NCBI GenBank assembly: GCA_016789455.1
Contig: JAEUQU010000001.1
Span: 1-33,709 of the forward strand
Direction of reading: 5' to 3'
DNA from: Candidatus Saccharibacteria bacterium
Lineage (GTDB): Bacteria > Patescibacteriota > Saccharimonadia > Saccharimonadales > Saccharimonadaceae
Length of the DNA stretch: 33,709 bases
Shown here: in pieces, positions 2,806 through 24,954 of the stretch
How positions within the stretch are numbered: the stretch's first letter is position 1
Layout of the letters: the number at the start of each line of letters is the position of its first letter
Translations under genes and position numbers: made by a program
The notes under the pieces: generated by a model
What the model was told of the DNA's origin: nothing
The model's database searches: none
The model's input: only the letters and a program-made list of their open reading frames with translations

Positions 2806-3183
2806 CTAGCTCTGCTCAATGATCGAGAGTATATTCCCCGCCGGATCATTAAACCAAGCAATCCGCGGCCCGCTGCCGCTGTAGATCTTGCGTTCGTCGC
2901 AGTTGGCTTCCAGCTCGGGGTAGCTGAGCATATCGACGCCTTTTTCTTTGAGCTCGTCGCAGATCTTTTCGATGTCGTCGACCGGGAAGTTCAGTACGGT
3001 GTGGCTGGCCGGTTGGTGGTCCGGCTTGGTGTAGAGAAAAACGTTGTTGCCGCCCGGAAAGTGCAGGTGCAGCTGGCCGTAGCCGGCAAAGTAGTTGATG
3101 CCGAGGGTGTGGCCGTAAAACTCCTTGGCTTTGTCTATGTCATCGACCGAGAAACTGCTGAAGGCTTTGGTGTGCCTGAACAC
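2806..3183 (-). CDS. VOC-superfamily (glyoxalase/dioxygenase fold) protein
   Basis: 125 residues, the usual size of a single-subunit vicinal-oxygen-chelate protein with two beta-alpha-beta-beta-beta modules. Module 1 starts F-S-V-D-D-I-D-K-A-K-E-F-Y and module 2 has the second V-D-D-I, ending in W-F-N-D-P-A-G-N-I-L. Both are hallmark positions of the glyoxalase/bleomycin-resistance/dioxygenase superfamily. Members bind a divalent metal and act as glyoxalases, dioxygenases, isomerases or drug-binding proteins; the reaction here cannot be assigned. The start is GTG at 3183, preceded by AAGGAGG at ideal spacing. A TATAAT lies upstream on the same strand (3255-3260) without a clear -35. Cytoplasmic, probably monocistronic. 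Confidence 0.85.
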   Translation of the reverse strand: MFRHTKAFSSFSVDDIDKAKEFYGHTLGINYFAGYGQLHLHFPGGNNVFLYTKPDHQPASHTVLNFPVDDIEKICDELKEKGVDMLSYPELEANCDERKIYSGSGPRIAWFNDPAGNILSIIEQS

Positions 3184-3284
3184 GGGTCCTCCTTGTCTCC
3201 ACCTTATGGTTACGGTGCGGCGCGGTGGTGGTGGAACATGGTGCGCCTACCCCTATTATAAGGCAGCCGCGGCGGTGCGCGCTG

Positions 3285-20727: not shown

Positions 20728-21450
20728 TCAGATGAATTTCCGCTGTCGGGTCTTTGCTAGGAATCCCTGGTGCTGCGTATACTCGCGCTCGTGGAGCAGG
20801 AAGGGGTAGGCTTGTAACTTCCGGCTATACGTAAAGTTGTCGTCGTTGGCACCCAGTACTGTCTTGAGCGGTATGGTGGCGTCAACGGCATAGATGTACC
20901 GCTCAGCCTCCTTGTTTTGCTGCTGATTTAGCAGGCCGCCGATGATTACCTCTACTTCATCGATTGCATCTGGACTTGCCGCGTACTGTTCATTAAATTC
21001 AAGTGAAACCCCAACCCCCACATTACCAATCAACGAAGCCCCCGCAATCCCCGGCTTCATCAACACGATGTCCCGCCGCCCAGTCAGATTAATCACCCGC
21101 CTCACCCCCGCCTCCACATTCGCCACAATCGGCACCATCCCCACCTCACACGACGTCGTGTGCAGATCCAGCACATACTCCGCCTCGCGCACGATGGGCA
21201 GCAGCTCCGCCGCCAACCGCTCCTCATGGTTGCCGCTTGGATTGCCCGGAAAACTTCGGTTCATATCGGCATCGATACAGCGCTTTCCCGCTGCGATCGC
21301 CTCTTCGTTCGCTAATATGATCGTCAGGCCGGGATAGTCAGCCAATCGATGTTCATAATACTTAAATACCCGCCGGCCGATGTGCTCATTGCCGTGCTGA
21401 CAGCCGATAATGGCAACTCTAGTCGGTTTGTGTGATGATTTAATCCTCAT
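20728..21450 (-). CDS. M14-family amide hydrolase (succinylglutamate desuccinylase/aspartoacylase type)
   Basis: 240 residues from the ATG at 21450 (AAGGA six bases upstream); the frame reaches 21516, but the extra 22 residues do not fit the family start. Zinc ligands and catalytic residues of the AstE/AspA group are visible: G-C-Q-H-G-N-E (His19, Glu22), D-M-N-R-S-F-P-G (Asn64, Arg65), L-D-L-H-T (His97) and S-L-E-F-N (Glu151). These cytoplasmic enzymes cleave an acyl group from an N-acyl amino acid. The acyl and amino parts here are unknown. It follows the GNAT gene in one unit, which suggests linked acylation and deacylation of one compound. The unit lies under the tryptophan-type leader at 22177-22637. 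Confidence 0.85.
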   Translation of the reverse strand: MRIKSSHKPTRVAIIGCQHGNEHIGRRVFKYYEHRLADYPGLTIILANEEAIAAGKRCIDADMNRSFPGNPSGNHEERLAAELLPIVREAEYVLDLHTTSCEVGMVPIVANVEAGVRRVINLTGRRDIVLMKPGIAGASLIGNVGVGVSLEFNEQYAASPDAIDEVEVIIGGLLNQQQNKEAERYIYAVDATIPLKTVLGANDDNFTYSRKLQAYPFLLHEREYTQHQGFLAKTRQRKFI

Positions 21451-21516
21451 TTCATTTCCTTTCGTTACAGTGTTCGTAGATGGAGGGACTGGCATAGATT
21501 CCAGCCCCTCCATCAC

Positions 21517-22116
21517 CTACGCGGGCGGCAGCAGTGCCCCAACCACAATGACGGCATCGCCATCAGCGAAGCTGCAGAGCCCATCCCACCAGGCGCTCAG
21601 CTCCGCATCGGGGTGCTGTGGCCGTTCGCCGTAAAGCGGGCCGCCGTAGCAGCCGCGCGTCACCGGGAAGACCCCGCCAAGATGCGTAGCTGCCTGCTGG
21701 CCTACCCGCAGGAGTTCACTGCCGCAAGGCCCGTTCTCCCGGTTTGGATAGGCCGGTTCACAGGCTGCCATGCCTGCCGTGTACATCCGCAGTGATTGTG
21801 TACGGTACGCCAGGTAGCGCACCCGTGGCAATGCTTGCTGAGCCGCCTGAATGGCCGCCAGTACATTGCGCCGCCGCTGATAGCCGCGTCGCAGGATGAT
21901 CCCGGAGAGGTACAATATATCCCCTGCCTCCCCGATGACATCAAAGATGACAAAGCCGGCAGTGGCGCCATCTGCCACAAAACTGTAGACCAGCTGGCCA
22001 TCGGCCAGGTGGCTGGCTACGTCCTGCTCCAGCTCGGGCGTTACCGGCCGGGCAAAGCCCTCAGCCGCGATCGCCACGGCGTCACGCATAGCGGGATGAG
22101 TCCTGACAAGGTGCAT
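21517..22116 (-). CDS. GNAT-like N-acyltransferase
   Basis: 199 residues, soluble. The fold reads as GNAT: V-Y-S-F-V-A-D-G-A-T-A-G-F-V-I-F-D-V-I in strands 2-4, then L-Y-L-S-G-I-I-L-R-R-G-Y-Q-R-R-R, a variant of the acyl-CoA pyrophosphate loop (usually Q/R-x-x-G-x-G/A), and a helix. The C-terminal half has several cysteines and a W-W-D-G segment. GGAGG stands six bases before the ATG. It is the first full gene after the Trp T-box and leader-peptide attenuator, and is followed by the M14 acylase. The substrate is unknown; given the regulation, an amino acid or peptide acceptor is a fair guess. Without the leader I would have called it a generic acetyltransferase. Confidence 0.68.
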   Translation of the reverse strand: MHLVRTHPAMRDAVAIAAEGFARPVTPELEQDVASHLADGQLVYSFVADGATAGFVIFDVIGEAGDILYLSGIILRRGYQRRRNVLAAIQAAQQALPRVRYLAYRTQSLRMYTAGMAACEPAYPNRENGPCGSELLRVGQQAATHLGGVFPVTRGCYGGPLYGERPQHPDAELSAWWDGLCSFADGDAVIVVGALLPPA

Positions 22117-22176
22117 CGTCTGCCTCCATCGTAGGGTTTTTGGCTGTCGAGACGGGCATGCTTACCCGCCTCTTCC

Positions 22177-22240
22177 AAACAAAACGCCCCGCGTGGACGG
22201 GGCGCTGTCTGCCGAAAAATCAGACATCACAAAACCGTCC
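22177..22240 (-). terminator. Leader-peptide attenuator terminator with competing antiterminator
   Basis: On the minus strand, CGCCCCG (22204-22198) pairs with CGGGGCG (22191-22185) over a six-base loop, followed by TTTTGTTT (22184-22177): a strong intrinsic terminator 60 bases before the GNAT start. The bases just after the leader stop, GGACGG (22240-22235), are complementary to CCGTCC (22200-22195), which includes part of the terminator's 5' arm. The two pairings exclude each other. A further hairpin, TGTCTG/CAGACA (22226-22206), would sit within the antiterminator. This is the layout of ribosome-mediated attenuation. Confidence 0.75.
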
Positions 22241-22314
22241 TACGGAGAGGCGCGCCAGTGCCACCAGAAGGCGGCAATGTGATTGGTGATGTAGTTGGTA
22301 TGTGATGAATGCAT
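22240..22314 (-). CDS. Tryptophan-rich leader peptide (24 residues)
   Basis: ATG (22314-22312) with AAGGA (22325-22321) six bases upstream, ending at TAG (22242-22240). The peptide's C-terminal part reads A-A-F-W-W-H-W-R-A-S-P. Three Trp codons in four are placed just before the stop and upstream of an alternative-hairpin terminator, as in trp operon leader peptides. A ribosome finishing at the stop would cover GGACGG and let the terminator form; one stalled at the Trp codons would leave it free for antitermination. It lies after the T-box terminator, so two tryptophan checks act in series. I know of no exact match for the peptide. Confidence 0.75.
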   Translation of the reverse strand: MHSSHTNYITNHIAAFWWHWRASP

Positions 22315-22344
22315 GTCTATTCCTTGCTGCATATCGGCTAAATT

Positions 22345-22402
22345 GAAAAGCCCTTGCAGATATTCACAGCCGGCCAAAGCCGAACTTTCAATATCTGCAA
22401 GG
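22345..22402 (-). terminator. T-box terminator hairpin
   Basis: A perfect 13-bp stem, CCTTGCAGATATT (22402-22390) with AATATCTGCAAGG (22364-22352), 25-base loop, then GCTTTTC. The 5' arm shares CCTTGC with the T-box antiterminator, so only one can form. The T run is short, so termination may be leaky. Confidence 0.75.
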
Positions 22403-22603
22403 ACCTTTACGGTGGTGCCACCTTGCTTCGCCGCGCCATCACTGCCGCGACCTTGGTGCCAGCAAAAACTGGCTGAAGCATGATGACGGACTTCTGCCGG
22501 AGCCCGCTACTTTCGCGCCACACCCCGTCTTGCGTGAGGGTGGCGCGATGGTTCACGGGTCAGCTCGCAGGGACCATATTCCCTGCTCAAACGCTTTTGA
22601 TGG
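22345..22603 (-). promoter_or_regulatory. T-box riboswitch, predicted tRNA-Trp specific, ultrashort Stem I type
   Basis: Read on the minus strand from the promoter. (1) A short hairpin GCAGGGA/TCCCTGC (22586-22567) has the loop ATATGG, with the Trp codon TGG at 22576-22574 as specifier. (2) A Stem II follows, CGCGCCAC/GTGGCGCG (22547-22514), flanked by GAA (22554-22552) and AGTA (22511-22508), the S-turn pair known from actinobacterial ultrashort T-boxes. (3) A short hairpin GCCAG/CTGGC resembles Stem III. (4) The antiterminator is GCAAGG, the seven-base bulge TGGCACC, ACC, loop, GGT, CCTTGC (22426-22397), matching the canonical UGGNACC bulge. TGGC implies a tRNA with discriminator G73, as in bacterial tRNA-Trp. 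(5) CCTTGC is also the 5' arm of a 13-bp terminator. Uncharged tRNA-Trp should favour read-through. Confidence 0.85.
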
Positions 22604-22608
22604 TGTTC

Positions 22609-22637
22609 AATATAGCACAAGTGCTTTGATTTGTCAA
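22609..22637 (-). promoter_or_regulatory. Consensus sigma-70 promoter of the T-box leader
   Basis: On the minus strand, a perfect TTGACA (22637-22632), a 17-base spacer and TATATT (22614-22609). Transcription would start near 22602 and run through the T-box, leader peptide and GNAT/M14 genes. It lies just beyond the 3' end of the beta-helix gene at 22657. Confidence 0.88.
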
Positions 22638-22656
22638 TCGGTCTCGCTAACAGTGC

Positions 22657-24954
22657 CTACTGTCGAATCAACACTATCCGATCCACCATCGACCCCGCCT
22701 CCCGATACTGCAACGTCATAGTATGCGTCCCGGCAGTCAAAGTAAACTTGGGATTGTTAGTAGCGTCATACACCCAGCTGGTAGATGGCTCCTGCAGGTC
22801 CCACATGGCATACGTCCCGCTATCAAACTTCACATTGAACGAGTCCGCATTGCCGCTGGCCGCCTTGATGTAGCCGGCAATCATGTACGTACCATTGGTG
22901 GGCACCTGGATGTTGTACGTTGCCGTGCCCGACGACTTACCAATCACATACTTACCACCAGAAGCACCCGTCTCCGACTGCTCAACGATGCCGCCACTCT
23001 CAGCACCCGCCTCCGCCTCAAACAGGCTGGTGGCCGTGATGGCACCCGGCGCAGTCGGTGCAGTGGCCGCCGTGTTGGCAGTCAGCGAGAGCGCATCTAC
23101 CTTGGTGCCGTTCTCTTTCTTGTAGAGTGTTAGCGTGTGCTTGCCGGCAGTCAGGCTGACGGTCGGTCCAGTGGCCCAGGTCCAGCTGGTGGTGCCGGCG
23201 GTCAGGTTCCAGTCTTGGCGAGAGGCAGTGTCAAAGGCGTATGAGAACGAGTTACTGGAGCTGGTAGGCGCGATCACGCGGCCCTTCAGCGTGTAGCTGC
23301 CAGCGGTCGTGACGTTGAACGTGTAGGTCACGCGCCCCGTGCCGGAGCCGCTCAGCTGGGCGACATACTTGCCGCCTTGGGCGCTTGGGTCGTTGTGGGC
23401 GGCCATCGGCGAGACCAGCGCGCCGGTCTCGGCCTCAAAGTTGATGTTCTGGGTCGTCGGTGAAGCAGGAGTGGTCACGTTGACTACGTTCGATGCCAGC
23501 GATTCCGTACCGGCCGCGTCCACCGCCTTCACGTAGTAGCTGTACGCAGTGCCGCCGGTCAGCTCGGACGAGGTGTAGGCGCGGTCGGTGACGTTGCCGA
23601 TCTTGGTGTCGTTGCGGTACACGTTGTAGGAGATGGCCGAGACCGCACCGCCTGGCGCCGTCCAGCCCAGCTTGACCTCGGTGGAAGTTGAGGATTGTAC
23701 CGTCAGTCCGCTTGGCGCCTGGATGCCGACCTTGGTGTCAGCACACGCCTTGGCCGGATCGCCAACGTTATTGGCCTCCTGGATAGCCCCGTTGGCCGCA
23801 AAGGTATTGCCGCAGATCTCACCCAGCTGCGCCACCGCCTGCTTGACGCTGATAGCCGCAGCAGCCGAGTTCTTCAGGGCGCTCAGACGGATGGCGTTGC
23901 CGCCTTTGTCATACGTGGAGGAATCCGACCAGAACTTGACGCTGTAGCCCCGGCTGCCGTCGACGACGGTATTCTCAACCCGGTTGTTGTCGCCGCGGAA
24001 CTCAATGTTGCTGCCGTTGTAGTCAATCGGCTCGTCGTTATACATACACTCGCTGTTCTGGATGATGTTGTGGTGCGCGTTCTCTTTGACGTTGAAGCAC
24101 TCTGAACCAAAGGTGCGGATGGTCGTTTCGGTTACCAGGATGCCGTTACTGGTGTCGTTGGCATACATCGGCTGAGTGGTCGACTTGGGGCTGGTGCCCA
24201 CATAGACGCCTTCGGCATTGTGGTACTTGTACTGTGAAGAATCGTCGCCCGCGCCATACATGCCGCACCACTGGATGACCGAGCGGCTGACCGCACTGGC
24301 CATGGCATTGTTGCGGAAGCGGACACATTCGCCGCCGGAGCCTTGCAGGAACATGTCATCGATGCGCGTGCCGACGATATCGCGCGAGTCATTGGCCGCG
24401 CCCACGTACACCAGCTTGCTGTTGACGGCGCGTGACTGCACGCTGTCCTTGAAGCCGCGGATGTTAGCAGGAGTCGTCGGGTATTCACCGCGGGCAATCG
24501 CCTTCTGTCCGTCAACCGTAAAGCCCTTCAGCGTGTAGTAGCTGTGGTTGATATCAATGACGTGGCCGCCGGTGCCGTACACCACCGCCTTGTACCGGCC
24601 GTTGATGTCCTTGCCGGTCTCCGGTCCCTGTAGCGTGATGGGATTGGCACTGGTGCCAGCAACCTTGGTGGTCACCTTGCCGGTATAGACCCCCTCTGCC
24701 AAGTTAATCACCGCGCCGGGCTGAGCCAGATCCATCGCCCGCTGGATAGTCTTGAATGGTGCCGAGGCGCTGGTGCCAGTGTTGGCATCAGATCCGGAGG
24801 GACTGACGTAATACGTCACCGTCGCCGCGTTGGCTGCGAAGTAAATCAGTGCGCCGACCGCCACGACGATACTGACGCCGCATGCGATGACAAGAGAGCG
24901 CAGCCGCGAGTCGCGACGGCGCCTGGAGCTAAGTTTGGTGCCTTTTTTTGGCAT
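22657..24954 (-). CDS. Secreted right-handed beta-helix protein with FnIII and two CBM6-like domains
   Basis: 765 residues: very basic N-terminus (S-R-R-R-R-D-S-R-L-R), membrane or signal helix (about 19-42, ending A-N-A-A), beta-helix (about 46-395) starting Y-Y-V-S-P-S-G and P-F-K-T-I-Q-R-A-M, a fibronectin type III domain (about 408-493, with Y-N-V-Y-R-N and Y-S-Y-Y-V-K-A-V-D-A-A-G), then two CBM6-like modules (about 498-628 and 640-765, each opening F-E-A-E-T/A-G). The helix and first CBM are closely similar to the protein at 14353-16275, but the middle domain is different and the second CBM is extra. AAGG lies eight bases before the ATG. Likely a surface or secreted glycan-binding or glycan-cleaving protein. 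Confidence 0.87.
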   Translation of the reverse strand: MPKKGTKLSSRRRRDSRLRSLVIACGVSIVVAVGALIYFAANAATVTYYVSPSGSDANTGTSASAPFKTIQRAMDLAQPGAVINLAEGVYTGKVTTKVAGTSANPITLQGPETGKDINGRYKAVVYGTGGHVIDINHSYYTLKGFTVDGQKAIARGEYPTTPANIRGFKDSVQSRAVNSKLVYVGAANDSRDIVGTRIDDMFLQGSGGECVRFRNNAMASAVSRSVIQWCGMYGAGDDSSQYKYHNAEGVYVGTSPKSTTQPMYANDTSNGILVTETTIRTFGSECFNVKENAHHNIIQNSECMYNDEPIDYNGSNIEFRGDNNRVENTVVDGSRGYSVKFWSDSSTYDKGGNAIRLSALKNSAAAAISVKQAVAQLGEICGNTFAANGAIQEANNVGDPAKACADTKVGIQAPSGLTVQSSTSTEVKLGWTAPGGAVSAISYNVYRNDTKIGNVTDRAYTSSELTGGTAYSYYVKAVDAAGTESLASNVVNVTTPASPTTQNINFEAETGALVSPMAAHNDPSAQGGKYVAQLSGSGTGRVTYTFNVTTAGSYTLKGRVIAPTSSSNSFSYAFDTASRQDWNLTAGTTSWTWATGPTVSLTAGKHTLTLYKKENGTKVDALSLTANTAATAPTAPGAITATSLFEAEAGAESGGIVEQSETGASGGKYVIGKSSGTATYNIQVPTNGTYMIAGYIKAASGNADSFNVKFDSGTYAMWDLQEPSTSWVYDATNNPKFTLTAGTHTMTLQYREAGSMVDRIVLIRQ

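Follow-up and report, generated by a model that had tools for sequence, protein, structure and literature searches.

A likely tRNA-Trp-sensing T-box of ultrashort Stem I in series with a probable Trp leader-peptide attenuator in a leader from Candidatus Saccharibacteria

Background

The canonical transcriptional T-box (Rfam RF00230) combines an antiterminator/terminator switch with a specifier, an S-turn, a pseudoknot and the T-box sequence. According to a review of 2020, control of transcription by a T-box generally depends on a long Stem I, whose IDTM module binds the elbow of the tRNA, and the ultrashort forms are mostly translational (PMC7583486). The latter are represented by the actinobacterial ileS T-boxes (N. 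farcinica, M. tuberculosis and M. smegmatis), which have a Stem I reduced to the specifier hairpin, a Stem II with the S-turn, a Stem IIA/B pseudoknot with the F-box CCGUCA, and a UGGN bulge (PMC7583486). The short-Stem-I model of TBDB was applied to Actinobacteria and to truncated class I matches (PMC7778990). In the B. subtilis rtpA (anti-TRAP) leader, a T-box is followed by ribosome stalling at Trp codons, both steps sensing uncharged tRNA-Trp, and it is translation on which the peptide acts (Chen and Yanofsky 2003, cited in PMC11255114). The T-box of the rtpA leader is of the ordinary kind. Attenuators of the E. coli trpL type consist of a short Trp-rich leader peptide and an alternative antiterminator and terminator. 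No T-box in Saccharibacteria, Patescibacteria or the candidate phyla radiation was found in the open-access literature searched; subscription papers were outside the scope of the search, and priority of an earlier report is not excluded.

Here we describe a leader in a stretch of 33,709 nucleotides (hereafter, the window) from Candidatus Saccharibacteria bacterium (GCA_016789455.1; contig JAEUQU010000001.1, positions 1-33,709). The leader shares the above-mentioned elements of the canonical T-box; however, it lacks the distal Stem I with its elbow-binding IDTM module. All of the features given above for the actinobacterial ileS T-boxes are also found in it, whereas it reads Trp instead of Ile, has a terminator instead of a Shine-Dalgarno sequestrator, comes from a Patescibacteria host, and carries an extra leader-peptide element. 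The initial annotation, which described the known ultrashort forms as mostly translational actinobacterial ileS leaders, agrees with the published accounts, from which the window departs. As for the tandem of T-box and leader peptide, the anti-TRAP leader is the nearest published relative, the differences being the ultrashort Stem I of the window and the terminator located 3' of its peptide. The peptide and its antiterminator/terminator pair resemble the E. coli trpL type, but are located 3' of a T-box and ahead of an operon of GNAT-like and AstE/AspA-family genes, not of trp biosynthesis genes. We consider it likely that the leader combines two devices acting on transcription, namely a T-box of ultrashort Stem I that senses tRNA-Trp and, 3' of it, a Trp leader-peptide attenuator.

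Results and discussion

Architecture of the T-box

Every element of the leader lies on the minus strand. The elements up to the first terminator are as follows.

22609..22637, minus strand: sigma-70-type promoter TTGACA-17-TATATT (11 of 12 positions match; sole promoter-like site in 22100-22700)
22586..22598, minus strand: conserved 5' element AAAAGCGUUUGAG, immediately 5' of Stem I, its final G being the first Stem I base
22567..22586, minus strand: ultrashort Stem I, GCAGGGA[AUAUGG]UCCCUGC, 7 bp with the 6-nt loop AUAUGG at 22579-22574 (from fold and covariation)
22574..22576, minus strand: specifier UGG (Trp), assigned by the CCA/G73 tRNA-Trp of the same genome and UGG in relatives
22500..22566, minus strand: Stem II, with the S-turn-like internal loop GAA (22554-22552) / AGUA (22511-22508) (from fold)
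22475..22499, minus strand: Stem IIA/B pseudoknot, CGG 22499-22497 / CCG 22489-22487, and GAAGU 22494-22490 with GCUUC 22479-22475 (read from the sequence)
22489-22484, minus strand: F-box CCGUCA, identical to that of N. farcinica ileS (PMC7583486)
22458..22473, minus strand: candidate Stem III hairpin GCCAG-UUUUUG-CUGGC (sequence reading and fold; the least certain element)
22397..22426, minus strand: antiterminator GCAAGG-UGGCACC-ACC-GUAAA-GGU-CCUUGC, helices A1 and A2 around the bulge (core pattern and fold)
22420-22414, minus strand: T-box bulge UGGCACC, within the antiterminator
22345..22402, minus strand: first terminator-like hairpin CCUUGCAGAUAUU.../AAUAUCUGCAAGG, then GCUUUUC (from fold)

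The T-box anatomy is thus complete except for the shortened Stem I. The 266-nt leader as a whole folds with a z of -6.7 against shuffles, and the T-box core, AAGGTGGCACCACC...GGTCCTT at 22424-22399 (minus strand), was matched by none of 100 shuffles of the window. Stem I consists of one hairpin only, with no distal IDTM, and Stem II starts directly after it. The fold energy of Stem I is -11.5 kcal/mol (z -4.2; 0 of 200 shuffles folded as well), and in an alignment of the helix from nine members including the window all 45 of 45 cells were paired, with double changes in all five of the five base pairs. For Stem II the corresponding values are -32.8 kcal/mol and z -5.3. The initial annotation had proposed, at 22567-22586, an ultrashort Stem I specifier hairpin of 7 bp with the specifier in a six-base loop, followed by a Stem II with GAA/AGTA S-turn elements; these claims held on the minus strand, the hairpin being supported by both the fold statistics and the covariation.

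The antiterminator and the first terminator are mutually exclusive because both use CCUUGC. The terminator-like hairpin is stable (-30.6 kcal/mol, z -6.9); its U-tract is short (GCUUUUC), and it was not called by the terminator scan. The arrangement is not that of Shine-Dalgarno sequestration, as the U-tract comes after the hairpin and approximately 230 nt separate the end of the hairpin from the regulated gene. The proposal of a Trp specifier followed by a terminator is supported, with the reservation of this short U-tract. An extra copy of UGGCACC is present at 22461-22455 (minus strand), where it overlaps the candidate Stem III; it precedes the true bulge by 41 nt and is probably a chance occurrence.

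RF00230 gave no match in the window or the whole genome, even at E 10, and none at the gathering score in 16 loci with related leaders. We regard this miss as a property of the model and not as a biological criterion; its expectation of a long Stem I is the probable reason. The best lenient Rfam match, PK-repBA over the terminator, was rejected, being far below its gathering score. A BLASTN search with the whole leader against 295 genomes of the same family returned only short and weak matches beyond its own genome.

Specifier and tRNA

The four triplets of the loop (AUA, UAU, AUG and UGG) were each compared with the tRNAs of the same genome. The tRNA-Trp (anticodon CCA) ends in G73-CCA and fits the UGGC bulge, and tRNA-Ile, tRNA-Tyr and tRNA-Met have A73; UGG is the sole fitting triplet, because the UGGC bulge needs G73 and tRNA-Trp alone among the four has it. 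G73 was also found in the tRNA-Trp of five further Patescibacteria genomes inspected. The earlier claim that only UGG fits the predicted discriminator therefore held in the comparison with the base 73 of the genome's own tRNAs. UGG is the specifier in 14 members of the family described below (the window included), of which nine precede trpS, trpB or trpE, and leaders with a UGGC bulge at Trp genes share the tiny hairpin, its loop again containing UGG. The assignment would have been refuted by homologues with a full-length Stem I or with some other conserved codon; neither was seen in the UGGC/Trp homologues examined, although the phylum does contain T-boxes of other specificities whose Stem I is full-length.

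The alternative that another triplet of the loop (AUG, AUA or UAU) is the specifier and a different tRNA is read has one point in its favor, namely the position of UGG directly against the 3' strand of Stem I, without the purine that usually comes next. This is a weak point of the assignment: the base 3' of UGG is U in the window and in one relative (L082) only, and a purine in nearly all the others. Against the alternative, the A73 of the tRNA-Met, tRNA-Ile and tRNA-Tyr of the genome mismatches UGGC, the near-identical hairpin of L082 precedes trpS, and the second element of the leader likewise reads Trp. The alternative can be practically ruled out, and UGG is taken as the specifier in the following.

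Related leaders in Patescibacteria

The core pattern was run over 84,980 species genomes and matched 62 stretches, of which approximately 30 were labelled as Patescibacteria (Daviesbacteria, Gottesmanbacteria, Saccharibacteria, Woykebacteria and others). Most of the Patescibacteria-labelled matches have the tiny Stem I hairpin together with the same 5' element, which is near-identical (AAAAGCGUU(U)GA / AAAUGCGUUGA) across most leaders of the phylum. The loop triplets and bulges usually agree with the downstream genes: UGG with a UGGC bulge is found before trpS, trpB and trpE, CCU or CCC with UGGU before proS and proB, UGC with UGGA before a cysteine-synthase-family gene, GAC with UGGC before aspS, AUC with UGGU before ileS, and CGC before argH, argF and argG. 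The gene names were first given from the translated starts, and 20 loci were then checked against NCBIfam; trpS, trpB, argS, argH, argF, argG, proS, ileS, aspartate--tRNA ligase and histidine ammonia-lyase passed the curated cut-off, and trpE, proB and the cysteine-synthase-family gene were clear family members under the equivalog cut-offs. The closest leader to that of the window is L082, with GGGAA[GAAUGG]UUCCC upstream of trpS; its pseudoknot is also alike, AAAGU/ACUUU standing at the positions equivalent to GAAGU/GCUUC of the window as a covarying partner.

Base 73 of the specifier tRNA and the fourth base of the T-box bulge are complementary in 30 of the 35 ultrashort members, including the window (permutation p ~1e-5). 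Note that base 73 was taken from the tRNAs of the window genome, and that the specifiers were read by eye, sometimes with the gene and the discriminator known, so that this p is optimistic. The five exceptions include four Arg leaders with a UGGC bulge, and one of these four (L121) was resolved, as its own tRNA-Arg(GCG) has G73. In L129, a UGGU bulge faces a tRNA-Arg with G73, which allows wobble only. A covariance model made of the IIA/B hairpin and the following hairpin, with the window left out of the building, was also used. The covariation score of its alignment was reached by none of 500 shuffles, and the model recovered additional members next to cognate genes, both within the order and within the phylum; it gave no match on the window itself, whose sequence is diverged in that part. 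Membership of the window in the family rests on the sequence and the comparison described above. Neither this large family of many specificities nor the leader-peptide element at 22314-22183 was visible to the initial annotation.

Most members have a terminator, as in the window, often with a long U-tract. Three leaders from Saccharimonadales (L152, L153 and L155) have the loop CAC and the bulge UGGG (C73, His) and lack a U-tract; they are probably translational, since the hairpin would cover AAGGAGG (Shine-Dalgarno) in L152 and L155. Their His assignment is based on the loop and the bulge alone. Three other leaders (L090, L101 and L127) have Stem I only approximately 48 nt before the T-box, with Stem II and IIA/B seemingly absent, and L084 possibly belongs with them; the minimal Trp T-box of L090 precedes trpS, and that of L101 precedes trpE.

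Several further observations were made at the matched loci. T-boxes with an apparently full-length Stem I are likewise present in the phylum (L194, L196, L197, L199 and L206; for example, before hisS-like genes with UGGG). Genes for TrpR-repressor-like proteins, recognised by eye, end just 5' of the Trp T-boxes of L084 and L106. In L120, a short ORF between the Trp T-box and trpS has its single Trp as the last codon (...HCGPW*), and the trpS product bears a C-terminal tRNA-binding domain resembling that of MetRS. L138, labelled as a Nanoarchaeota archaeon, has a Patescibacteria-like Trp T-box with a trpE-family gene and is probably a mislabelled bin. Three Chloroflexota loci (L105, L131 and L140) have T-box-like cores, AAGGTGGTACCRCC...GGGTCCTTGCC, in long leaders. 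Five matches of the pattern on viral contigs were rejected because no T-box leader was present, as were three in the order (L073, L077 and L079), which were coding-sequence-like without leader structure; the weaker matches of the covariance model were mostly rejected for want of a T-box core.

The second element

Three further elements lie 3' of the first terminator and ahead of the first gene.

22240..22314, minus strand: leader peptide ORF MHSSHTNYITNHIAAFWWHWRASP*, 24 codons (...AFWWHWRASP), the Trp codons starting at 22266, 22263 and 22257
22195..22240, minus strand: possible second antiterminator, GGACGG 22240-22235 / CCGUCC 22200-22195, enclosing GUCUG/CAGAC at 22225-22207 (-18.3 kcal/mol)
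22183..22206, minus strand: second intrinsic terminator AGCGCCCCGUCCACGCGGGGCGUU, then UUGUUU (called by the terminator scan)

The leader peptide ORF is preceded by AAGGA, and an ORF with a comparable Trp cluster appeared in 9 of 20000 shuffles of the region; its presence is shown by sequence and comparison. GGACGG sits just 3' of the stop codon, and CCGUCC is inside the second terminator stem. The layout of an attenuator, that is, clustered Trp codons in a short ORF just 5' of an exclusive antiterminator/terminator pair, is met. The second terminator together with the inner hairpin (-23.9) is more stable than the second antiterminator (-18.3); the energies do not favor the latter, and antitermination would therefore rely on co-transcriptional timing. 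Trp clusters are also found in two short ORFs elsewhere in the window (3109-3261, plus strand; 11633-11577, minus strand), neither of which is located in a comparable leader.

No locus homologous to the window operon was found, and the comparison of the leader peptide was limited to an analogous case for arginine in L107 (Saccharimonadales). This locus repeats the tandem: a T-box with the specifier CGC and a UGGU bulge, which fits the A73 of its tRNA-Arg(GCG), a peptide ...HYRVRISGGCS* with CGC GUC CGU as the codons of the Arg region, and GGGGGUUGCU, which pairs with AGCAGCCCCC to give a 10-bp antiterminator against a second terminator. Its argS is the third gene of the apparent operon. The window and L107 are the only cases of the tandem found.

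Two alternatives to an attenuator were considered. The first is that the ultrashort T-box works alone, the WWHW ORF and the second hairpin being incidental, or an ordinary spacer or partial terminator. In its favor, the second terminator thermodynamically beats its antiterminator, and most family members have no such ORF between the terminator and the gene. Against it, the Trp cluster is rare by chance (as counted above) and concerns the same amino acid as the specifier, the ORF lies just 5' of a scan-called terminator with a spacing as in classical attenuators, and L107 repeats the design with Arg; we consider this alternative unlikely. The second is that the second stage does not govern transcription termination but decides whether the downstream gene is translated, by analogy with the anti-TRAP (rtpA) leader of B. 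subtilis. In its favor, that leader is a direct precedent, joining a Trp T-box to a peptide rich in Trp codons, and its second step is translational (Chen and Yanofsky 2003, cited in PMC11255114). However, in the window the hairpin with UUUUGUUU is 3' of the ORF, approximately 65 nt before the start codon and away from the ribosome-binding site GGAGG, and this possibility seems improbable to us. A transcription attenuator thus remains the preferred reading of the second element.

The regulated genes

The leader precedes two genes.

21517..22116, minus strand: first gene, 199 aa, weakly GNAT-like (Pfam Acetyltransf_1 E 0.007, under the cut-off)
20728..21516, minus strand: second gene, AstE/AspA-family hydrolase, directly adjacent to the first (PF24827 E 3.8e-16)

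The directly downstream gene has no known role in Trp metabolism, which counts against the explanation preferred here. The 199-aa protein had no relatives in 41 related genomes, in the 84,980 species genomes or in plasmids, and its structure model was too poor for use (mean pLDDT 46). AstE/AspA genes were also found 3' of full-length Stem I T-boxes in L202 and L208, with 32-37% identity over approximately 100 residues to that of the window. A role of the operon in salvage of Trp from acylated or peptide forms is inferred only as a possibility; it is made plausible by the failure to detect trpB in the window genome. The trpS of this genome has no T-box upstream.

Proposed mechanism

The following scheme is inferred from sequence and comparison, including the binding of the tRNA, the discrimination between its uncharged and charged forms, both switches and the role of the operon; no experiment was performed. 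When the antiterminator is held, RNA polymerase would pass the first terminator, and after this readthrough a ribosome would translate the 24-codon peptide. Stalling at the Trp codons would let GGACGG pair with CCGUCC, and the polymerase would pass the second terminator; by classical attenuator logic, we infer that a ribosome at the third Trp codon leaves GGACGG free. A ribosome that reaches the stop codon would cover GGACGG, resulting in termination. Expression of the GNAT-like and AstE/AspA genes would then be confined to real Trp shortage.

Conclusions

On balance we lean, with limited confidence, towards a bolder reading, in which a large family of transcriptional T-boxes in Patescibacteria is invisible to Rfam and does without the elbow module of Stem I. 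The family would have members for Trp, Arg, Pro, Cys, His, Asp and Ile, some Trp members also lacking Stem II, and some of the family members in Saccharimonadales would be coupled in series to an attenuator whose leader peptide concerns the amino acid of the T-box, as a two-step starvation test. If this is true, the existence of an ultrashort family that has many specificities and is mostly transcriptional would mean that the link between a long Stem I and transcriptional control is not a rule. It would also extend T-boxes into a phylum thinly covered by the existing surveys and make very small natural T-box designs available for study, and a T-box and a leader peptide in series would represent a natural two-input check, on charged and uncharged tRNA, in very small genomes.
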